Assembly (NCBI RefSeq): GCF_003345255.1
Contig: NZ_CP029331.1
Location: 1,116,001-1,180,000 of the forward strand
DNA from: Pseudothauera hydrothermalis
GTDB lineage: Bacteria > Pseudomonadota > Gammaproteobacteria > Burkholderiales > Rhodocyclaceae
Length of the DNA stretch: 64,000 nt
Direction of reading: 5' to 3'
Made by a program: the position numbers and the translations under genes. The first letter of the stretch is position 1; every line of letters starts with the position of its first letter. Below are positions 24,239-44,568 of the stretch, piece by piece. Under the pieces are notes generated by a model. The model made no database searches and was not told the origin of the DNA. It saw nothing but the letters and a program-made list of their open reading frames with translations.

Positions 24239-24274
24239 TGACATTGGTGTCAGCAAACATGTCGAAAATGGCAG
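24239..24274 (+). promoter_or_regulatory. Paired FisR-like upstream activator sites before the TDT gene
   Basis: TGTCGAAAATGGCAG (24260-24274) matches the two fisR-cydP sites (TGTCCAAATTGGCAG and TGTCCATGTTGGCAG) at 13 and 11 of 15 positions. TGACATTGGTGTCA (24239-24252), 21 bp upstream or two helical turns, is a looser dyad of the same type. Both lie about 83-104 bp before a GG-N10-GC promoter, the usual spacing for a sigma-54 enhancer. Confidence 0.55.
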
Positions 24275-24342: not shown

Positions 24343-24358
24343 TGGCAGTCTTGTTGCT
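24343..24358 (+). promoter_or_regulatory. Sigma-54 promoter before the TDT gene
   Basis: TGGCAGTCTTGTTGCT matches the sigma-54 consensus TGGCACG-N4-TTGCW, with exact GG (24344-24345), N10, GC (24356-24357). It would start transcription about 70 bases before the ATG at 24444. Confidence 0.65.
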
Positions 24359-24443
24359 GGCATGAAAATTGTTTTCGCTATGCATCATCCTCGAGCGCAT
24401 ATTCCGTGCCGCCTCTTGAGGCCGTTGTCAGGAGAATCCATAC

Positions 24444-25436
24444 ATGTCCGTCCAAACCCCCGCTCTGTCCCCAACCAATGCCGCGCCCGATGCCCGTTTG
24501 GCGCATTTCCCGGTGGCGCTTTTTTCCACCGTGATGGGTATGGCCGGCCTCACCTTGGCCTGGCTCAAGGCGGCACACCTGGGTGGCGTACCGGCCTGGA
24601 TCGGCGATGGCCTGCGCTGGGTGGCAAGCGGTCTTAATCTGTTCCTGCTTGTGGTGTATGCGCTGAAGGTCGTCCGCCATCCCGGTGAGGTGGCCGCAGA
24701 GCGCCGGCATCCGATCAAGCTCAACTTCTTCCCTGCGATCTCTATCGGCCTGCTGCTGTTGGCCACGGCCTGGGTCGGTACGGTGCCGGGTGCGGCACAG
24801 TGGATGTGGGGCGTGGGGGCGGCCATGCACCTTGGCTTTACCCTGTGGGCGATGAGTAGCTGGATCCACCACACCCACTACGACATCAAACACGCCAACC
24901 CGGCCTGGTTCATTCCGGTGGTGGGCAACATCCTGGTGCCGGTGGCCGGCGTGAAGCTCGCCCCGGCGGACATCAGCTGGTTTTTCTTCAGCATCGGTCT
25001 GGTGTTTTGGCTGGTGCTGATGACCATCGTGCTCTATCGCCTGTTCTTCCACGAGCCGCTGCCCGCCCGGCTCACGCCCACGCTGTTCATCCTGATCGCG
25101 CCGCCGGCGGTCGGTTTCCTCTCTTACCTGGCGCTGGTCGGCGTCCTCGATGCGTTTGCAAGGGTGCTGTACTTCACCGCGCTGTTCCTCACCCTGTTGC
25201 TGGCGACCAACGCGCTGCGCTTTTTCCGGCTGCCGTTTTTCATTTCAGCGTGGGCGTATTCTTTTCCGCTGGCGGCGATGACCATTGCGACCTTCGAGAT
25301 GGCGGCCCGGGTGGGTGGCGCCGTCTTTTGGGGGCTGGGTTGGGGCTTGATCGCGGTGCTCAGTGCAGTGGTCATGCTGCTGGTCGGTCAAACCGTGCGT
25401 GCTGCCTGGCAGGGTAAAATCTGCGTGCCGGAGTGA
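24444..25436 (+). CDS. TDT/SLAC1-family anion channel or exporter
   Basis: A 330-residue protein with about ten membrane segments and the short Pro/Phe-rich entry FPVALFSTVMGMAGLT typical of the TehA/SLAC1/Ssu1 superfamily. Members move tellurite, C4-dicarboxylates, nitrate/chloride or sulfite. A sigma-54 promoter and FisR-like sites upstream suggest regulation by sulfane sulfur here. That favours sulfite or another sulfur oxyanion as substrate, but this is inference. The start has a CAGGAGAA ribosome site. The next permease overlaps or closely follows. Confidence 0.85.
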   Translation: MSVQTPALSPTNAAPDARLAHFPVALFSTVMGMAGLTLAWLKAAHLGGVPAWIGDGLRWVASGLNLFLLVVYALKVVRHPGEVAAERRHPIKLNFFPAISIGLLLLATAWVGTVPGAAQWMWGVGAAMHLGFTLWAMSSWIHHTHYDIKHANPAWFIPVVGNILVPVAGVKLAPADISWFFFSIGLVFWLVLMTIVLYRLFFHEPLPARLTPTLFILIAPPAVGFLSYLALVGVLDAFARVLYFTALFLTLLLATNALRFFRLPFFISAWAYSFPLAAMTIATFEMAARVGGAVFWGLGWGLIAVLSAVVMLLVGQTVRAAWQGKICVPE

Positions 25437-36249: not shown

Positions 36250-36843
36250 TCATGCCTGGGCGCCGTTCTGGTCTTCGCCGATCAGCAGCGTGGTCGGTCC
36301 AAGCCAGACATGTGGCGGTATTTCCAGGTTGGTGGGTGCCGGCTGGTGGCGGAAGACTCGTCCGGCTAGGTCGAACATCGAACCATGGCAGGGGCACAGA
36401 AAACCGCCCGGCCAATCGGCGCCCAACCCGCTGGCAGGGCCGGCTTGAAGTTTTTCGCTGGGCGAGCAGCCCAGGTGGGTGCAGATGCCAATTACCACCA
36501 AGTATTCCGGCATGATCGCGCGGTGTGGGTTGGTGGCGTAGTCCGGCTGCACCGAGTCTGCCGATAGCGGGTCGGCCAAGCGATCTTCATGCCCGCCCAG
36601 ATTGGCGAGCATTTCGGCGGTGCGGCGCAAAATCCACACCGGCTTGCCGCGCCACTCCACGGTCATCATTTCTCCGGGGGCGAGCTTGGAGACATCGGCT
36701 TCGACCGGTGCACCGGCAGCCCTGGCGCGCTCGGAAGGGGTCAGGCTGGCAACAAAGGGCACAGCCGTAGCCGCGGCGGCGGCGGCCCCTGCGGCCGAGG
36801 TGGCGATCAACAGATTGCGACGATCTTTGGCAAGGTCTGGCAT
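36250..36843 (-). CDS. petA: Ubiquinol-cytochrome c reductase Rieske iron-sulfur subunit
   Basis: A 197-residue protein with a Tat-like N-terminus (DRRNLLIATSAAG) that doubles as the membrane anchor. A C-terminal Rieske domain binds [2Fe-2S] through CTHLGC and CPCHGS. The protein matches bc1 Rieske subunits in length. Oddly, no cytochrome b or c1 gene follows; the gene ends at a convergent unknown gene. It is therefore an orphan copy, which may serve a bc1 complex encoded elsewhere. It lies downstream of fisR on the same strand. Confidence 0.93.
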   Translation of the reverse strand: MPDLAKDRRNLLIATSAAGAAAAAATAVPFVASLTPSERARAAGAPVEADVSKLAPGEMMTVEWRGKPVWILRRTAEMLANLGGHEDRLADPLSADSVQPDYATNPHRAIMPEYLVVIGICTHLGCSPSEKLQAGPASGLGADWPGGFLCPCHGSMFDLAGRVFRHQPAPTNLEIPPHVWLGPTTLLIGEDQNGAQA

Positions 36844-37024
36844 CTCGGGTGCTCCCTCAACGGCGTGGAAAAAAGCTGCCGAACATCATCGATGCCCGGC
36901 AGCCAAGCTGAAGCGGTAGTCCGGAGGAAGGAAACTCGGACAACGGCCTGCTAGGGGTTGGGGGACGTCGAGGTGACGCAGCAGCGACCGCTTGGGCAAG
37001 TTCTCCCGCTTCTGCCCAGGGAGA

Positions 37025-37040
37025 TTCAAATAACGTGCCA
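37025..37040 (-). promoter_or_regulatory. Sigma-54-like sequence before petA
   Basis: On the minus strand TGGCACGTTATTTGAA fits the -24 element exactly, with correct spacing, but the -12 GC is GA. It would start about 170 bases before petA. The imperfect -12 element makes this tentative. Confidence 0.3.
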
Positions 37041-37149
37041 GCTCGATTCAATTCTTCGGGTTTGGCTGAAAATTAATTTATAAACAAAGCTTTAATTTTT
37101 GATTGCGATTGACAGTCAGAAGGCGACTCGCCGTCGGGTATGCTTTTTT

Positions 37150-37196
37150 TGACAGCTTTTGTCAGAGATAGCGGCATAGCCTGACATTTTTGTCGG
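37150..37196 (-). promoter_or_regulatory. Two TGACA-type dyads upstream of petA
   Basis: TGACAGCTTTTGTCA (37150-37164) and TGACATTTTTGTCGG (37182-37196), start to start 32 bp apart, lie 110-170 bp upstream of the sigma-54-like sequence. They resemble the TGACATTGGTGTCA dyad before the TDT gene. Their use as activator sites is inferred. Confidence 0.3.
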
Positions 37197-37199
37197 ACG

Positions 37200-38537
37200 C
37201 TAGGTTTGTTGGTACTGTCTGAGCTTGCGGTATAAGGTGCGCTCGCTGATGCCTAGTTTTTCAGCCAATGCCTTGCGGCTGCCGCGGTGAGCCTGCACCA
37301 CCTGCAGGAAGCTGCGGCGCTCGATGTCGTCCCAGCGCGGTGTATCGTCCGCGCTGCGCTGGCGCTGTCCATCGGTGTCGCTCGAGTCGGCAAGCGCGGA
37401 GCAGGTGCGCAGTTCCGCATCCAGGTGTTCGATATCGATTTCCTCGCCGTCGCACATCAAGCTGGCCCGTTCCAGCAGGTTGCGCAGCTCGCGTACATTG
37501 CCCGGATAGCTGTATTGGACCAGCACTGCCAGGGCAGCAGGTGTGACACGCAGTCGACGCCCCGCCGCCACACGGGCGAGCAGCGATTCGACCAGCAGCG
37601 GAATGTCGCTGGCGCGCTCGCGCAACGGCGGCACGGTGATCGGGAAGGTGTTGATCCGGTAGTAGAGATCCTGACGGAAGCTGCCTTGCGCGATCATTTG
37701 CTTGAGCGGCCGGTGAGTGGCCGAGATCAAACGGATGTCGGCGCGGCGCAGTTCGGTGGAGCCCACCCGGCGGTAGGTGCCGGTTTCCAGCAGACGCAGC
37801 AGCTTGACCTGCATGCCCAGCGGAATGTCGCCGATCTCGTCAAGAAAAAGAGTGCCGCCGCTGGCCGCTTCCACCAGACCGGGCTTGCGGCTGGTGGCGC
37901 CGGTGAAGGCGCCACGTTCATGACCGAATAGTTCGCTTTCGAACAGGGTCTCGGGCAGGCCCGAGCAATCCACCGCGACAAAAGGATGGCCCGCCCGCTG
38001 GCTGGCGGCATGAATGGCGTTGGCCACCAATTCCTTGCCGGTGCCCGATTCGCCCTGCAGCAGGATGCTGGCGTTGGAAGGCGCGGCGCGTGCGATCAGC
38101 CCGAGCATGTGCTGGAAGGCCGGGGCGCGGCCGACCAGTCCGGTGTGGTCGGAGAGGCCGCGGGCCACGTTCATCGGCTCCATCTTCTCGATGAACCAGG
38201 CGATTTCGCCGTTGGCGTCGCGAATCGGCGAAAGCTCGATGCTCACATATTCCTCGCCGCGCGGGGTGTGGTGCAGGTGCAGTACGCGCTCGCGCTGGCC
38301 GGACTTCAAGCTCTTGGCCAGTGGACAGGACTCGCCGGCCTGGTCGCAGGGGAGGTTGTAACGGTGGGAGATCTCGTAGCAGGTGCGTCCGATCACGCTG
38401 CGCCCGGTGGCAAAGCCGGCGCGGTAGGCCGTGTTGGCTGCGATGATGCGGTAGTTGCGGTCGCACAGGATGTGTGGCTCCGGCAGCGTATCCAGGAAAG
38501 ACAGGAGTTCGGGCAGGGGGCGGGTGTCGGGGTGCAT
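37200..38537 (-). CDS. fisR: FisR-type sigma-54 activator sensing sulfane sulfur
   Basis: A 445-residue enhancer-binding protein. The N-terminal PAS-like sensor (1-115) carries Cys53, Cys64 and Cys71 in [13 protein letters not shown] and ESCPLAK, exactly the numbering of the three polysulfide-sensing cysteines of Cupriavidus FisR. The AAA+ domain has GESGTGKE and GAFTGA, needed to remodel sigma-54 polymerase. A Fis-type HTH ends the protein ([14 protein letters not shown]). An in-frame TTG at 38549 is possible, but ATG 38537 has a GGACAG ribosome site and gives the family numbering. It is divergent from the cyd operon, and an activator site abuts its start, suggesting autocontrol. Confidence 0.92.
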
Positions 38538-38542
38538 GATAC

Positions 38543-38598
38543 TGTCCAAATTGGCAGCGCAATGGCAGTTGATACTGGCAGAGTGTCCATGTTGGCAG
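38543..38598. promoter_or_regulatory. Two FisR upstream activator sites
   Basis: TGTCCAAATTGGCAG (38543-38557) and TGTCCATGTTGGCAG (38584-38598) are identical at 13 of 15 positions and 41 bp apart, four helical turns. Each has partial dyad symmetry (TGNCCA against TGGNCA). Two further TGGCAG half-sites lie between them (38563, 38576). They are 132 and 91 bp upstream of the sigma-54 promoter, the usual enhancer position. Confidence 0.7.
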
Positions 38599-38674
38599 TT
38601 CCGGCGTCAAGCAGACGGCTTTGACAATGATCAAAAATCGATAAAAATCAATAACATAGAGTGTTGATTAAGGG

Positions 38675-38691
38675 TTGGCATGGCGCTAGCA
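38675..38691 (+). promoter_or_regulatory. Sigma-54 promoter of the cyd operon
   Basis: TTGGCATGGCGCTAGCA keeps the invariant GG (38677-38678), N10, GC (38689-38690) of sigma-54 promoters. Transcription would begin near 38702, 19 bases before cydP. Confidence 0.8.
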
Positions 38692-38720
38692 TCTGCGCCC
38701 GTGCTGACCCGGAGAAACGC

Positions 38721-38921
38721 ATGCTTGCATCCGACCGAAAACTGCTGCGCGAGATCGTCGTGGTCGTCGTGCTCAAGCTGGTGCTGATCGCCGCCCTGTG
38801 GTGGGGGTTCATCCGCGACCACAAGGTCGAGGTGGATAGCGCACGGATGGCGGTGCATGCGGCCGGGGGCCTACAACAACCTGACGACGGAGAGACCGAT
38901 GGTCACAGAGCAACTCGTTGA
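38721..38921 (+). CDS. cydP: Cytochrome bd oxidase putative small subunit CydP
   Basis: A 66-residue protein with a basic N-terminus (DRKLLRE), one membrane helix (about 12-31) and the family string [13 protein letters not shown]. CydP is a small predicted subunit or assembly factor encoded just before cydA in many betaproteobacteria. ATG 38721 has a GGAGAAA ribosome site. The gene overlaps cydA by 23 bases. Confidence 0.85.
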
Positions 38922-40455
38922 TCTTTCGCGGTTGCAGTTTGCCGCGACCGCGATGTACCACTTCCTGTTCGTGCCGCTGACCCTCGGGATGGTCTGGCTG
39001 CTGGTGATCATGGAAAGTGCGTACGTGATGACCGGCAAGCTCATCTACAAAGACATGACCCGCTTCTGGGGCAAGCTGTTCGGCATCAACTTCGCGCTGG
39101 GCGTGACCACCGGGATCACGCTGGAATTCCAGTTCGGCACCAACTGGGCCTACTACTCGCACTACGTGGGCGATATTTTCGGCGCGCCACTGGCCATCGA
39201 GGGGTTGATGGCCTTCTTTCTGGAATCGACCTTCATCGGCCTGTTCTTCTTCGGCTGGGACCGCCTGTCGCGGGTGCAGCACCTGATGGTGACCATCCTG
39301 ATGGCGGTGGGCACCAACCTCTCCGCGCTGTGGATCCTGATCGCCAACGGCTGGATGCAGCACCCGGTGGGCGCCGAATTCAGCTTTGAAACCATGCGTA
39401 TGGAACTCACCGACTTCTGGGCGGTGATGTTCAACCCGGATGCGCAGGCCAAGTTCGTGCACACCGTGTCGGCCGGCTATGTGACCGGGGCGATGTTCGT
39501 GTTGTCGATCTCGTCCTGGTATCTGCTGCGCCGTCGCGATCTGGAATTCGCCCGGCGCTCGTTTTCGATTGCCGCGGCCTTTGGCTTTGCCTCGGTGTGC
39601 TCGGTGATCGTGCTGGGCGACGAATCCGGCTATGTGGTGAGCGAGGCGCAGCAGACCAAGCTCGCCGCCATGGAGGCGATGTGGGAGACCGAGCCGGCGC
39701 CGGCCAGCTTCAACGTCATCGCCATCCCCAACGAAGCGGAGATGAAAAACGACTACGCCCTGCAAATCCCCTGGGTGATGGGTTTGATCGCTACCCGCTC
39801 GCTCGACCAGGAAATTCCCGGCATCCGCGAGATCGTCGCGCGCAACCGCGAGCGGGTCGAGGTGGGTGTGGAGGCGGTGCGCCTGCTCGAAGCCCTGCGC
39901 GCCGATCCGGGCAATGTCGAGCTGCGCGAGCGCTTCGATGCGGTCAAAGACGATCTGGGCTTTGGCCTGCTGCTGAAAAAATACGTCACCTCCATGGACG
40001 AGGTCACGCCGGAACTCATGGATCGCGCCGCACGCGACACCATCCCGAAGGTGGCGCCGCTGTTCTGGAGCTTTCGCATCATGGTGGCGCTGGGCTTTGC
40101 CATGCTGGCGCTATTCGGCCTGGCGCTGTGGTATTCGGTGAAGGGTAACTTCGAGCATAAGCGGTGGCTGCTGCGCTGGGCGTTGTGGTTTTTGCCGGCG
40201 CCGTGGATTGCCTCGGAACTGGGCTGGTTCGTCGCCGAGTACGGCCGTCAGCCCTGGACCATCTACGGCGTGCTGCCCACCCACCTGTCGGTATCTACGC
40301 TGACGGTGGAAAGCCTGTACGGCTCGCTGGCCGGCTTCGTCGGTTTTTATACCTTGCTGCTGATCGTCGAGATGTACCTGATGGTGCGCTTTGCCCGCCA
40401 GGGACCGGGCAGCCTGGGCACCGGTCGCTACATGAACGAAACCGCGCACGCCTGA
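38899..40455 (+). CDS. cydA: Cytochrome bd ubiquinol oxidase subunit I
   Basis: A 518-residue quinol oxidase core. His21 ([10 protein letters not shown]) corresponds to the haem b595 ligand and [12 protein letters not shown] to the quinol and haem region. The long Q-loop between helices 6 and 7 (about 255-385) places it with E. coli-type bd-I oxidases. The complex reduces oxygen to water with high affinity and resists sulfide, nitric oxide and cyanide. ATG 38899, with GGAGAGA just ahead, is preferred to the upstream in-frame start. Confidence 0.97.
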
Positions 40456-40469
40456 GAGGAGGCTACATC

Positions 40470-41609
40470 ATGATTTTTGACTACCCGACCCTGAAACTCA
40501 TCTGGTGGTTGCTGGTGGGCGTGTTGCTCGTCGGTTTTGCCATCATGGACGGCCACGACATGGGCGTGGGCACGCTGCTGCCCTTCGTCGGCAAGAACGA
40601 CACCGAGCGCCGCGTGGTGATCAATACCGTCGGCCCGCACTGGGACGGCAACCAGGTGTGGTTCATCACCGGCGGCGGGGCGATCTTCGCCGCTTGGCCT
40701 ATCGTCTATGCCACTGCCTTCTCCGGCTTCTATTGGGCGATGCTGGCGGTGCTGTGGGCGTTGTTCTTCCGCCCGGTGGGCTTCGACTACCGCAGCAAAA
40801 TCCACAATGCCACCTGGCGCAGCACCTGGGACTGGGGGTTGTTTGTCGGCGGGTTCGTGCCGCCGGTGATCTTCGGTGTGGCCTTTGGCAACCTGCTGCA
40901 AGGCGTGCCCTTCCACTTCGACGACACCCTGGTGCCGTATTACACCGGCAGCTTCTGGGACCTGCTCAACCCCTTCGCACTGCTGTGTGGCGTGGTCGCC
41001 AGTGCGATGATCACCCTGCAGGGGGCGGTATACCTGATGCATCGTACCGAAGGCGAGATCTACGCCCGCACCCGCAAAGCCATGCTGGGCGCGGGCATCG
41101 TGCTGCTGGCGGCCTTCAGTGCGGCCGGCGTGTGGGTGCAGGATATTCCCGGCTATGTGATCACCAGCGCCTTCGACCCCGCGGCACTGCCCAACCCGCA
41201 GGCCAAGACGGTGGCACGCGAAGCCGGCGCCTGGGTGGCTAACTACCGCACGATGCCCGCCACCTTGCTGGTGCCGGCGCTTGCCTACCTGGGCGCGATC
41301 GGCGCCGTCTGGCTGGCCTGGCGCGGACGCACGCTGGCGGCTTTCGTAGCCTCCTCGCTGGCCATCGTCGGGGTGATCGGTACCGCAGGGGTGTCGATGT
41401 TCCCCTTTGTGATGCCTTCGATCAGCGCGCCGGACATGAGCCTCACGGTGTGGGACGCGGTCTCCAGCCAGCGCACGCTCTCCATCATGTTCTGGGCCAC
41501 GCTGATCTTCATGCCGCTGATCGTGCTCTACACCAGCTGGGCCTACAAGGTGATGTCCGGCAAGGTCACCGCGGCCTATGTACGCGAGAACGAACACTCC
41601 GCCTACTGA
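40470..41609 (+). CDS. cydB: Cytochrome bd ubiquinol oxidase subunit II
   Basis: A 379-residue protein, the same length as E. coli CydB, with eight to nine membrane helices. The N-terminal signature FAIMDGHDMGVG and GPHWDGNQVW are family blocks for the oxygen and proton channel surface. A GAGAGGAGG ribosome site lies seven bases upstream; cydA ends 14 bases before. Confidence 0.97.
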   Translation: MIFDYPTLKLIWWLLVGVLLVGFAIMDGHDMGVGTLLPFVGKNDTERRVVINTVGPHWDGNQVWFITGGGAIFAAWPIVYATAFSGFYWAMLAVLWALFFRPVGFDYRSKIHNATWRSTWDWGLFVGGFVPPVIFGVAFGNLLQGVPFHFDDTLVPYYTGSFWDLLNPFALLCGVVASAMITLQGAVYLMHRTEGEIYARTRKAMLGAGIVLLAAFSAAGVWVQDIPGYVITSAFDPAALPNPQAKTVAREAGAWVANYRTMPATLLVPALAYLGAIGAVWLAWRGRTLAAFVASSLAIVGVIGTAGVSMFPFVMPSISAPDMSLTVWDAVSSQRTLSIMFWATLIFMPLIVLYTSWAYKVMSGKVTAAYVRENEHSAY

Positions 41610-41625
41610 AACAAGGAGAACACGA

Positions 41626-41757
41626 ATGTGGTACTTCACCTGGATGCTGGGCATCGGCTTCGCCGTTCTGCTGGCGATCCTCGACGTGCTGTGGATGGAG
41701 AATGAAGATGGACGGCGTAACAGCCTGCGGGCACGACGGGAAGGCGATGACACCTGA
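41626..41757 (+). CDS. cydX: Cytochrome bd oxidase small subunit CydX
   Basis: A 43-residue single-span protein beginning MWYFTWMLGIGFAV and continuing LLAILDVLWMENED, the CydX pattern with the conserved Trp and the Glu after the helix. CydX stabilises the haems of CydAB. An AAGGAGAA ribosome site and a position 16 bases after cydB support it. Confidence 0.92.
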   Translation: MWYFTWMLGIGFAVLLAILDVLWMENEDGRRNSLRARREGDDT

Positions 41758-42043
41758 GGCCGAACGGGAGGTGGCGGCGGTTGGGCAGGTCAAGCCGCTG
41801 GCCATCGCCATGGCGCTGGCGATCACGCTCGGCGTCACCCTCTACCCGCATGCGCTGGCCGGCCCCGACGGCGCGGCCGACCACTGGGCGGCCATGGCTG
41901 CCTTCTGGGCGATGAGCGCCGGCTATGTGAGCGGCGTCGGCTTCCGGCCGCAGCGCCTGGTGTTCCGCCTGATCTTCTCGGGCTGGACCTGCCTGGCGGC
42001 CTTGCTCCTGGCCGGTGCCCGCATGGCCTGGCTGTGGGGGTAG
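41747..42043 (+). CDS. ybgE: Cyd operon protein YbgE
   Basis: A 98-residue membrane protein with three hydrophobic segments, matching the length and position of YbgE after cydX. ATG 41747 overlaps the end of cydX by eleven bases and has a GGGAAGG ribosome site; an earlier in-frame ATG at 41702 would overlap more. The function in the bd complex is unknown. FRPQRLVFRLIFSGW near the end resembles the family. Confidence 0.75.
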   Translation: MTPEAEREVAAVGQVKPLAIAMALAITLGVTLYPHALAGPDGAADHWAAMAAFWAMSAGYVSGVGFRPQRLVFRLIFSGWTCLAALLLAGARMAWLWG

Positions 42044-42047
42044 GACG

Positions 42048-42746
42048 ATGTACTTCCGCATCATCGAGGACAGCCGCTCCAGCGCCGTGGGCTACCTGCT
42101 GGCCGATGCCGGGCGGCAGTCCGCGGTGGCGATCGACCCGCCGCCCGGCCAGGAGGCGCTGATCTGCGCACTGCTCGACGAGTGCGGCCTGCGCCTGCAG
42201 CACGTGGCGCGGACCCATGTCCACCGGCCGGATCATGCCGGTTGCGCGGGCCTGTGCAGCCGCACCGGCGCCTCCTGCGTTGCCGGTGTCGAAGCCGGCC
42301 TTGCGGACGCTGCGCGAAAGCTGGTGCATGGCGACACGCTGGTGTTCGGTGACGAGGTGCTGCATGTGCTCGCCACCCCCGGACATACCCCGGGCTGCAT
42401 CAGCTTCCGCTGGCGGGACCGGCTGTTCTGCGGCGACGTGTTCGACGTAGGCGGGTGCGCCGTCGGCAACAGCGAATCCGACCCAGCGCTGCTCTACGAC
42501 AGCCTGACGCAACGCATCTTCACCTTGCCCGACGAGACGCTGGTGTTTCCGTCCCATCGCTCCAAGGGGCGGACCGTGTCGACCGTGGCCGACGAACGGC
42601 GCCGCCACGCCCGGGTGATCGGTGGTTCGCGCGAAGGCTTCCTGACCGAGATGGCCTTCCGCCGGGTCGTCCATCCACGTTTGACGCAGGCCCTGAACGC
42701 TGCGGGGGATGAGCCCCGCGCAGGCAAGGGCGGGCTCGAGCGATGA
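42048..42746 (+). CDS. Metallo-beta-lactamase fold hydrolase in the cyd operon (persulfide dioxygenase-like)
   Basis: A 232-residue MBL-fold protein of the glyoxalase II/ETHE1 size class. Metal ligands are His57, His59, Asp62 and His63 in THVHRPDH, one residue longer than the canonical HxHxDH, then LATPGHTPG, FCGDVFDVGG and FPSHRSKG. In known FisR loci the activator controls a persulfide dioxygenase of this fold with SQR, so persulfide oxidation is a reasonable guess. The unusual spacing of the metal motif leaves the chemistry open. It starts four bases after ybgE. Confidence 0.72.
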   Translation: MYFRIIEDSRSSAVGYLLADAGRQSAVAIDPPPGQEALICALLDECGLRLQHVARTHVHRPDHAGCAGLCSRTGASCVAGVEAGLADAARKLVHGDTLVFGDEVLHVLATPGHTPGCISFRWRDRLFCGDVFDVGGCAVGNSESDPALLYDSLTQRIFTLPDETLVFPSHRSKGRTVSTVADERRRHARVIGGSREGFLTEMAFRRVVHPRLTQALNAAGDEPRAGKGGLER

Positions 42747-42773
42747 GTCTATAAGCATATAAGCGTACGGTGA

Positions 42774-42779
42774 TATACT
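42774..42779 (+). promoter_or_regulatory. TATACT -10-like box before sqr
   Basis: TATACT lies 66 bases before the sqr ATG. Upstream, ATAAGCATATAAGCG contains a direct ATAAGC repeat (about 42751-42765) that could bind a repressor. No sigma-54 spacing is present here, so sqr either has this vegetative promoter or is read through from the cyd operon. Confidence 0.35.
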
Positions 42780-42844
42780 GACGCAGAAACATCATTCGGC
42801 CAGGCGGCAAGGGGTCGCTTCGCCGGTACACGGAGGAGGCGAGG

Positions 42845-44200
42845 ATGAGCTCTCAAGAACACGAAAACCGGTTGCTGCAGAGTCTGGCGCGTGCGCCGCT
42901 CGATCGGCGAACCTTCCTGACCCTGGGTGCCGCCGGCGCGGGCAGCCTGATGCTGGGCGCCAAGCCGGCCCGGGCGGCCGAACGGGTCAAGACGGCGGCG
43001 CACATCGTCATTGCCGGCGCGGGCGCTGCCGGGCTGGCGACCGCGTCGCGGCTGGCCGCGCGTCTCGATGGCGCGAAGATCACCCTCATCGATGCGCGCA
43101 AGCCGCATTTCTACCAGCCCGGCTTCACCCTGGTGGCGGCGGGCATCAAGCCGGCCGACTACGTGGTGTCGACCACTGCCGAATACGTGCCGGGCGGTGT
43201 CGAGCTGATCGAGGAGGCCGTGGCCGAGTTCGATCCCGAGGGCAAGCGGGTGGTCACGGCCAGCGGGCGGGCGGTGTCTTACGACTACCTGGTGGTGGCC
43301 ACCGGCCTCAAACTCGATTACGAAGCCATCGAAGGCATGGATGTTGCGCTGATCGGCCAGAACGGCCTGGGCAGCATTTACCATAGCCCGCAGGCTGCAG
43401 CCGCCACCTGGGGTGCGCTGTCGCAGTTTGCCGACCGTGGCGGGGTAGGGGTGTTCAGCCGCCCGGCCACCGAGATGAAATGTGCGGGCGCGCCGCTCAA
43501 ATACACTTTCATCACCGACGACCACCTGCGCCGGCGCGGCAACCGCGGCAAGGCAGAGCTCATCTACAACGCCCACAACAAGACCTTGTTCAGCGTGCCC
43601 ATCGTGCATGAGAAGGTGCGCATGCTGTTCCGTGATCGCGGCATCAAGACCCACTACGACCGGGTGCTGACCCGCATCGAGCCGGCTCGCCGTGTAGCCA
43701 CTTTCAGCACGCCGGACGGCCTGGTCGAGCAGCCCTACGACTTCATCAACGTGATTCCGCCCATGCGCGCACCGGATGCGGTACGCAACAGTCCATTGCC
43801 GTGGCAACAGGGGCCTTGGGTTGCGGAAGGGTGGTTAGAAGTGGAGCGCAGCAATCTGCGCCACAAACGCTACCCGGAGATTTTTGCCGTGGGTGACATC
43901 GCCGGCGTGCCCAAAGGTAAAACCGCGGCCAGCGTAAAGTGGCAGGTGCCGGTGGCGGTAGACCACCTGGTGGCAGACATCGCCGGGCGGCAGAGCGATG
44001 CGGTTTATGAGGGCTACACCTCCTGCCCGCTGATTACCCGTCTGGGGCGGGCGATGTTGATCGAATTCGATTACGAGAACAACCTTACTCCCTCGTTTCC
44101 CGGCGTGGTGGCACCGCTGGAAGAGCTGTGGGTGAGCTGGGTGATGAAGACCATGGCGCTCAAGCCCACCTATATCAGCATGCTGCGCGGTCGCGCCTGA
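42845..44200 (+). CDS. sqr: Type II sulfide:quinone oxidoreductase with Tat signal
   Basis: A 451-residue FAD enzyme oxidising sulfide to sulfane sulfur and reducing quinone. The dinucleotide-binding motif is IVIAGAGAAGLATA. Redox cysteines are Cys213 in MKCAGAPLKY and Cys394 in YTSCPLIT, and both flanking sequences match the type II group that includes human SQOR. An N-terminal DRRTFLTLGAAGAG plus ARAAE reads as a Tat signal, unusual because most type II enzymes lack one. A GGAGGAGG ribosome site lies eight bases upstream. Electrons could pass directly to the bd oxidase encoded upstream. Confidence 0.9.
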   Translation: MSSQEHENRLLQSLARAPLDRRTFLTLGAAGAGSLMLGAKPARAAERVKTAAHIVIAGAGAAGLATASRLAARLDGAKITLIDARKPHFYQPGFTLVAAGIKPADYVVSTTAEYVPGGVELIEEAVAEFDPEGKRVVTASGRAVSYDYLVVATGLKLDYEAIEGMDVALIGQNGLGSIYHSPQAAAATWGALSQFADRGGVGVFSRPATEMKCAGAPLKYTFITDDHLRRRGNRGKAELIYNAHNKTLFSVPIVHEKVRMLFRDRGIKTHYDRVLTRIEPARRVATFSTPDGLVEQPYDFINVIPPMRAPDAVRNSPLPWQQGPWVAEGWLEVERSNLRHKRYPEIFAVGDIAGVPKGKTAASVKWQVPVAVDHLVADIAGRQSDAVYEGYTSCPLITRLGRAMLIEFDYENNLTPSFPGVVAPLEELWVSWVMKTMALKPTYISMLRGRA

Positions 44201-44214
44201 GGAGGAAATAACCC

Positions 44215-44568
44215 ATGAAAGAACTCGACCCGTTGGTTTTTCTGGCCGTATTCCAGGAAATGCTAGGCCCCTTGCTGTGGGTGTTGGTGTTGCTGGCGGT
44301 GGGCGGTATCGCCGCATTCTTCGCGGTGCTGGTGAAGGAGCGCCGCATCGTCAGTCAGCGTCTGGTGCGCGCCGAGCTTCTGGGCCTGGTTGGCGGCGTG
44401 CTGTCGCTGGTGCTGATGGCCAAGGTGTCCTCGTCGGGCTTCACCGACGCGGGCGGGCCGGCCGACTGGTTTTTGATCGCGTTGGTGTTCGGCGTCGGTC
44501 TCGCCGGCACCACCATCCTGGTCTATGCGTTGGCCGGCTGGCGTGATCTGCTAAGCAGTTCGCGCTGA
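44215..44568 (+). CDS. Small membrane protein of the sqr locus
   Basis: A 117-residue protein with three hydrophobic segments (about 18-40, 52-68, 84-108). It may belong to DUF5368, a family I associate with sulfide-oxidation loci, but this is tentative. It starts 14 bases after sqr with a GAGGAAA ribosome site and is followed by a strong hairpin, so it ends the transcript. Confidence 0.65.
   Translation: MKELDPLVFLAVFQEMLGPLLWVLVLLAVGGIAAFFAVLVKERRIVSQRLVRAELLGLVGGVLSLVLMAKVSSSGFTDAGGPADWFLIALVFGVGLAGTTILVYALAGWRDLLSSSR

Follow-up and report, generated by a model that had tools for sequence, protein, structure and literature searches.

Cytochrome bd oxidases resist sulfide, and in several bacteria cydAB is sulfide-inducible. 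The FisR protein of Cupriavidus pinatubonensis JMP134 is a sigma-54 activator whose known targets are the sulfide-oxidation genes for persulfide dioxygenase (PDO) and sulfide:quinone oxidoreductase (SQR) (PMC9495516, PMC9774590); in the Cupriavidus protein, Cys53 and Cys64 are joined by a tetrasulfide (PMC9495516). In Acinetobacter baumannii, FisR activates PDO1-SQR-TauE-hsd and sulfide induces cydAB, and the FisR-deletion transcript tests in the available text concern the PDO1-SQR and BigR operons (PMC7315123). In Escherichia coli, the sulfide-responsive repressor YgaV is reported to control the cytochrome bd genes, cydAB being up in a ygaV mutant (PMC9774250 and PMC11858517). Here we consider a 64,000-nucleotide stretch of Pseudothauera hydrothermalis DNA (the window, part of a single-contig genome of 3,059,321 bases), in which a FisR-type activator gene is divergent from a cytochrome bd (cyd) operon; relatives in the comparison sets carry the labels L### for loci and G### for genomes. 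The original prediction made from this DNA held FisR control of cyd genes to be undescribed. Among the matches listed in the open-access literature searched, no report of such control was found. A sulfide sensor acting on cyd is, however, not new, because YgaV is reported to be one in E. coli.

The elements that the original prediction brought together, namely a FisR-type activator, its sites, a promoter and the cyd operon, are all present. The divergence and promoter typical of FisR are found here with cyd as the adjacent target, while a PDO-like MBL gene and an SQR gene lie further downstream. Our reading, to which we assign a probability of about 0.8, is that FisR, responding to sulfane sulfur, drives cydPABX-ybgE-MBL through sigma-54, and probably two more promoters of the window as well. 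Within it, the comparison across genomes gives good support to a sigma-54-dependent control of cyd by FisR. The genes, sites, promoters, their conservation and the presence of rpoN are taken from the sequence, and from these we infer the binding, the activation, the signal and the physiology. The regulator gene and the region between the divergent genes contain the following.

37200–38549, minus strand: fisR, a sigma-54-dependent activator (PAS_4, AAA+, Fis HTH), from domain and alignment searches
38542–38557, plus strand: FisR-type upstream site 1, CTGTCCAAATTGGCAG, overlapping the fisR TTG start
38583–38598, plus strand: FisR-type upstream site 2, GTGTCCATGTTGGCAG, from a motif search
38621–38634, no strand assigned: FNR-like box TTGACAATGATCAA with one mismatch
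38676–38691, plus strand: sigma-54 promoter of the cyd operon, TGGCATGGCGCTAGCA, GG-N10-GC, before cydP, with an atypical -12 element

The likely start of fisR is ATG 38537, with TTG 38549 as an alternative from which 449 amino acids are counted. The protein has the PAS_4, Sigma54_activat and HTH_8 domains, and GAFTGA appears in its translation. Counted from the TTG, the sensor cysteines are Cys57, Cys68 and Cys75; from ATG 38537 they become Cys53, Cys64 and Cys71, so that the residue numbers with which the regulator had been identified as FisR hold. As reference for these positions, the 53–64 link comes from the available text of PMC9495516, and position 71 from the original prediction. A second full-length fisR copy was not found in the genome, where the 11 other matches comprise AAA+ and/or DNA-binding parts only; rpoN is present.

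All three cysteines are kept in 34/34 FisR-type aligned rows, the only other row, L047, being without the middle one. Sulfane sulfur is the presumed signal on the strength of these conserved cysteines and of homologs that face sqr and PDO-like genes. The regulator might instead control cyd through sigma-54 while sensing NO, cyanide, thiol oxidation or electrophiles. The bd oxidases tolerate NO and cyanide too, and the FisR ligand is itself deduced, but the 34 rows include proteins facing SQR or PDO-like genes, and PDO-like and SQR genes stand behind cyd in the window cluster. We regard another signal as improbable.

The two TGTCCA-NN-TTGGCAG sites that had been described as 41 bp apart occur exactly, at 38543–38557 and 38584–38598, with that spacing, and two more TGGCAG half-sites (38563–38568 and 38576–38581) lie between upstream sites 1 and 2. 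The genome-wide motif scan that the original prediction had called for returned these two as the only exact matches in 3,059,321 bases, both between fisR and cydP, and seven more places with one mismatch. As a family-wide site, TGTCCA-NN-TTGGCA was dropped, being rare outside Pseudothauera. A looser palindrome, approximately CTGNC-N5/6-GNCAG, of which the predicted enhancer is one form, and its half-sites were adopted for that reason; they were chosen after inspection of the regions.

The pairing of fisR with cyd was then followed through relatives. The FisR sensor domain occurs in 70/150 genomes of the family and 75/369 of the class (E ≤ 1e-12; the weakest may not be FisR), and cydA (E ≤ 1e-100) in 41/150 family genomes, with 44 genes. 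FisR is present in 30/41 genomes with cydA vs 40/109 others (p = 9e-5). The comparison of fisR-cyd adjacency, likewise called for, gives 21 of the 44 family cydA genes divergent beside FisR, counted by hand from coordinates. The distinct loci number 131, of which 106 are FisR-type and 25 are AAA+-only homologs; cydA is divergent from fisR within 1.3 kb in 33 of the 106, the other FisR genes facing SQR, PDO/MBL-type or Rieske genes, or unnamed genes (33/106). Mechanical open reading frames proved unreliable for reading the divergent genes, owing to shadow frames in GC-rich DNA. On a FisR tree of 103 rows built by a quick method, 22 changes of the cyd label are required (27.8 with shuffled labels), of which at least 11 are forced by well-supported branches. 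The pairing was therefore gained or lost repeatedly and does not go back to a single accident of descent. In Pseudoalteromonas, too, a FisR homolog (43%) faces cydA.

The relatives have TGGCACG-N4-TTGAT-like sites before cydP at a distance similar to that in the window. A strict GG-N10-GC search was dropped, as it missed most relatives because their -12 element is TTGA or TTGT, and a learned model was used instead, trained on 37 sites from FisR loci without cyd that were picked by a sigma-54 consensus. With that consensus, 31/33 cyd loci and 0/25 AAA+-only loci have a site that reaches p ≤ 0.03 in 100 shuffles. The learned model exceeds the 99% null at 32/38 FisR-adjacent cyd genes vs 4/24 non-adjacent ones (p = 1.6e-7). 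The FisR half-sites follow the same pattern, with 3.58 per cyd region vs 0.37 in shuffled sequence, 2.0–2.8 in other FisR groups, and 0.21 vs 0.18 shuffled at AAA+-only loci.

All four scoring non-adjacent cyd genes (L180, L182, L183 and L184) belong to the 13 in FisR-bearing genomes, and none to the 11 in FisR-less genomes; FisR lies elsewhere in each of the four genomes, in the case of L184 on the contig of cyd itself, at a distance of about 5 kb. Half-sites number 3–5 at L180, L182 and L183 and 0 at L184, FisR-less cyd genes having at most 2. The promoters and half-sites at L180, L182 and L183 suggest that non-adjacent cyd genes of FisR-bearing genomes may be controlled in trans.

We have also considered that cyd is under oxygen control through FNR only, FisR serving other genes and being a mere neighbor. 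FNR-like boxes are present in 13/33 FisR-cyd intergenic regions vs 6/73 non-cyd FisR loci, and the -12 element is weak in the window genome, as such a view would have it. It is nevertheless very unlikely, considering that a model trained without any cyd promoter separates cyd genes by the presence of FisR, and that the fisR-cyd link was gained or lost more than once. The FNR-like box of the window sits between the FisR sites and the cyd promoter, and a perfect TTGATTTACATCAA is found in several Thauera loci.

Several observations weigh against FisR as the driver of cyd, or limit its part. The GG-N10-GC promoter that had been proposed before cydP is present, and it beats 100/100 mononucleotide shuffles under the sigma-54 consensus, but its score is 8.4 in the model trained on other FisR loci, where the null has its 99th percentile at 13.2. 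This is because its -12 element is TAGCA, and the family pattern therefore carries more weight than the window's own promoter; at the position of TGGCATGGCGCTAGCA, the near relative L083 has TGGCACGCCCCTTGAT. In all, 6/38 FisR-adjacent cyd genes, the window included, fall below the threshold, 9/13 non-adjacent cyd genes of FisR-bearing genomes are without the promoter, and the distant cyd-linked loci L081, L145, L146, L147 and L159 have 0–1 half-sites. The frequency of FNR-like boxes points to a further controller, which makes an oxygen input on cyd likely too. The AT-rich gap at 42746–42845 before the SQR gene has an extended -10 look (TGATATACT), similar in L083, L013 and L041, and SQR may own a separate sigma-70 promoter, perhaps with another regulator. 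Finally, FisR dependence of cydAB in A. baumannii is not stated in the available text of PMC7315123. The proposal that FisR switches the terminal oxidase is too simple in view of the FNR-like boxes.

In the mechanism that we favor, FisR would bind the CTGNC-N5/6-GNCAG sites between fisR and cydP, and sulfane sulfur would cross-link its sensor cysteines, upon which RpoN-RNA polymerase would be activated at the -24/-12 promoter. The cydPABX-ybgE-MBL genes would then be transcribed, possibly on into SQR. SQR would pass the electrons of sulfide to quinol, and the sulfide-tolerant bd oxidase would remove the quinol electrons where haem-copper oxidases would be poisoned. FisR probably also fires a second promoter, giving a structured small RNA and then an orphan Rieske protein, and a third one, before a SLAC1-type channel. 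The genes of the operon and those behind it are as follows.

38721–38921, plus strand: cydP, start ATG 38721, family profile 53.8 bits (cut-off 29.6)
38899–40455, plus strand: cydA, PF01654 590.4 (cut-off 26.2), below both NCBIfam cut-offs
40470–41609, plus strand: cydB, 498.6 (cut-off 117.3)
41626–41757, plus strand: cydX, 38.8 (cut-off 31.6)
41747–42043, plus strand: ybgE-like, PF09600 74.2 (cut-off 25.2), below the NCBIfam cut-off
42048–42746, plus strand: persulfide-dioxygenase-like MBL gene, PF00753 23.9 (cut-off 22.7)
42845–44200, plus strand: SQR, from similarity to solved SQRs
44215–44568, plus strand: DUF5368 protein, also behind SQR in L013, L038 and L041

These genes bear out the predicted divergent order cydP-cydA-cydB-cydX-ybgE-MBL. 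The cytochrome bd subunits are assigned by Pfam for CydA and CydB and by NCBIfam for CydB and CydX. The cydA frame is open from 38857, with ATG 38899 as the likely start, and no other cydA was found in the genome.

The best solved relatives of the MBL protein are MBL-fold proteins, the PDO-rhodanese fusion BpPRF and ETHE1. The motif of ETHE1-like persulfide dioxygenases is HxHxDH. Here the first metal motif, THVHRPDH, reads HxHxxDH, with one residue more than in 9rhq_A, while GHTPGC and GD are kept; because of the extra residue we label the protein PDO-like only. It also has GGCAVGN where 9rhq_A shows GGCGRTDF, and its substrate may differ. The SQR gene begins after a 98 bp gap behind the MBL gene. 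Its product is nearest to human SQOR (2.7e-67 over residues 54–439) and passes no NCBIfam SQR cut-off. In sister species, fisR directly faces SQR (L041) or MBL-SQR (L038), so that cyd occupies the place of sulfide genes in the window.

The second FisR-type promoter lies on the other side of fisR from cyd and is absent from the original prediction.

37110–37186, minus strand: four FisR half-sites (CTGTCA/CTGACA/TGTCAG), upstream of the RNA/Rieske promoter
37025–37040, minus strand: second FisR-type sigma-54 promoter, TGGCACGTTATTTGAA, 197 nucleotides before the Rieske gene
36868–37015, minus strand: candidate FisR-controlled small RNA, core 36910–37012, intrinsic terminator 36904–36874
36250–36843, minus strand: orphan Rieske [2Fe-2S] subunit, 75% identical to the Rieske protein of a petABC-like operon elsewhere

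The window Rieske gene is an orphan paralog, because the other Rieske gene of the genome is followed by cytochrome b and c1-like frames (by inspection). A FisR-type site (best-site p ≤ 0.025, 40 shuffles) is present at all 25 distinct loci where a Rieske gene follows fisR on its own strand, and half-sites there average 3.64 vs 0.54; at L020 the site lies 29 nucleotides before the extrapolated Rieske start. At L103, L119, L120 and L129, the gene facing fisR encodes a Rieske protein and has a PDO-like MBL gene behind it, the two apparently forming a separate operon.

Among the 12 RNA leaders scored, 10 fold better than shuffles (z -2.2 to -8.2; window -3.4), those of L034 (z -0.4) and L098 (z -1.4) folding no better. 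In a seven-sequence alignment, 90.0% of cells pair vs 73.5 shuffled (0/500), both partners vary in 15/23 pairs (a value reached in 1/500 shuffles), and the covariation is 0.547 vs 0.262 shuffled (0/500) and 0.02–0.12 when slid; this alignment was trimmed to the closing stem, which favors that stem, and the structure was drawn from the alignment on which it was counted. The first, untrimmed alignment had 6 pairs only. A shuffle test of the closing stem gives p ≤ 0.05 for 14/24 leaders, with the window failing (p = 0.33), and the stem was not found in the Methyloversatilis leaders L028, L029, L034 and L091.

A covariance model from Thauera RNAs (R1) missed the Pseudothauera group at E ≤ 1, and the only model linking both groups is R2, built from seven RNAs of the Pseudothauera/Azoarcus group. 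Over 46 sources, R2 finds copies in 11 outside its training set: L041 (2.4e-8), L038 twice (2.8e-8 and 6.7e-6), L026, L019, L021 and L017 (E < 0.01), and more weakly L018, L016, L020, L015 and L042. Two further weak matches, L088:1482 and L017:13181, look like chance and were set aside. Nothing was found at E ≤ 1 in 28/46 sources, including L025, L028, L030, L031, L033, L034, L095 and L098, all with Rieske leaders. Of the 16 RNA places checked, 13 have a FisR-type promoter 27–32 nucleotides upstream and 2–5 half-sites; the promoters of L041, both L038 copies, L019, L015 and L042 were first seen through the RNA model, and L017:8213 has none by the pattern used. With strict filters, R2 gives 8 matches in the 150 family genomes, all in FisR-bearing genomes, 7 of the 8 having supplied the model. 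The candidate RNA belongs to no Rfam family at the gathering threshold; its best match of the small-RNA type, the alphaproteobacterial ar7 (RF02342), was rejected because its 16.3 bits (E = 2.3) fall short of the gathering score, which is 60.

The RNA might be a mere structured 5′ leader controlling Rieske, since it stands directly before that gene in the window, L083, L013, L027, L085, L088, L092, L026, L021, L018, L016 and L038:14064. Yet a terminator or T-run closes it at most of the places examined, L038:9520 being an exception, and it stands without a following Rieske gene in L041, L038:9520, L019, L015 and L017; the text test for a missing Rieske gene was wrong for L042 and L020, where the gene is present. 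A leader only is therefore rather unlikely in our view, and we infer a separate transcript.

The third promoter, also absent from the original prediction, lies in another part of the window.

24248–24274, plus strand: FisR half-sites, including TGTCGAAAATGGCAG, before the SLAC1 gene
24358–24373, plus strand: third FisR-type sigma-54 promoter, TGGCATGAAAATTGTT
24444–25436, plus strand: SLAC1/TehA-type anion channel, a candidate sulfur-anion exporter

SLAC1 genes are found in 32 family genomes; in 19 of these, FisR shares the contig and lies no more than about 16 kb away (hand count, window included), and in G019, G080 and G126 the gene is directly divergent from fisR. The promoter is conserved in few: 20 upstream regions were fetched, one was too short, and of the 19 scored L233, L250 and L252 retain it (p = 0.000). 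Where SLAC1 directly faces fisR, the p values of the promoter are 0.18 (L110), 0.02 (L112) and 0.56 (L117). That the channel may export sulfite or another sulfur anion is a guess from its family and context.

With the RNA/Rieske and SLAC1 promoters added, the regulon is probably wider than first described. A sigma-54 activator of a persulfide-sensing family appears to drive cyd directly, along with sulfide-removal genes; if so, sulfide removal and sulfide-tolerant respiration would be wired as one unit, and with the RNA and orphan Rieske protein FisR would be more than a detoxification switch and would have a hand in controlling the respiratory chain. Tentatively, and at somewhat less than even odds, FisR could be the master regulator of sulfide-stress respiration in the family, commanding bd oxidase with SQR, an alternative Rieske protein that may be swapped into the bc1 complex, a channel for sulfur anions, and a small RNA acting in trans that silences sulfide-sensitive functions. 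The RNA would then be a sulfane-sulfur-induced small RNA of a new family.

Among known systems, YgaV, of the SqrR/BigR type and an ArsR-type repressor, resembles the window regulator as a sulfide-responsive protein controlling cytochrome bd genes. It differs in being a repressor that is not sigma-54 dependent and no kin of FisR, and the available text describes no such linked promoter architecture. The E. coli cytochrome bd-I genes cydABX-ybgE match the window in gene families and order; they are under ArcA and FNR control, whereas the window adds cydP in front and MBL/SQR behind. In A. baumannii, cydAB is at another locus (A1S_1433-1434), while in the window cyd is divergent beside fisR. The FisR of C. 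metallidurans (L080), which faces PDO and SQR (identified by inspection) with CTGCCAAGTTGGCAG and TGGCACGGGTTTTGAG, shares the three sensor cysteines, a CTGCC-N5-GGCAG site and a TGGCACG-N4-TTGA promoter toward the divergent neighbor. Compared with the C. pinatubonensis regulator and its sulfide-oxidation targets, the window FisR has the cyd operon as its adjacent target, plus the candidate RNA/Rieske and SLAC1 promoters.

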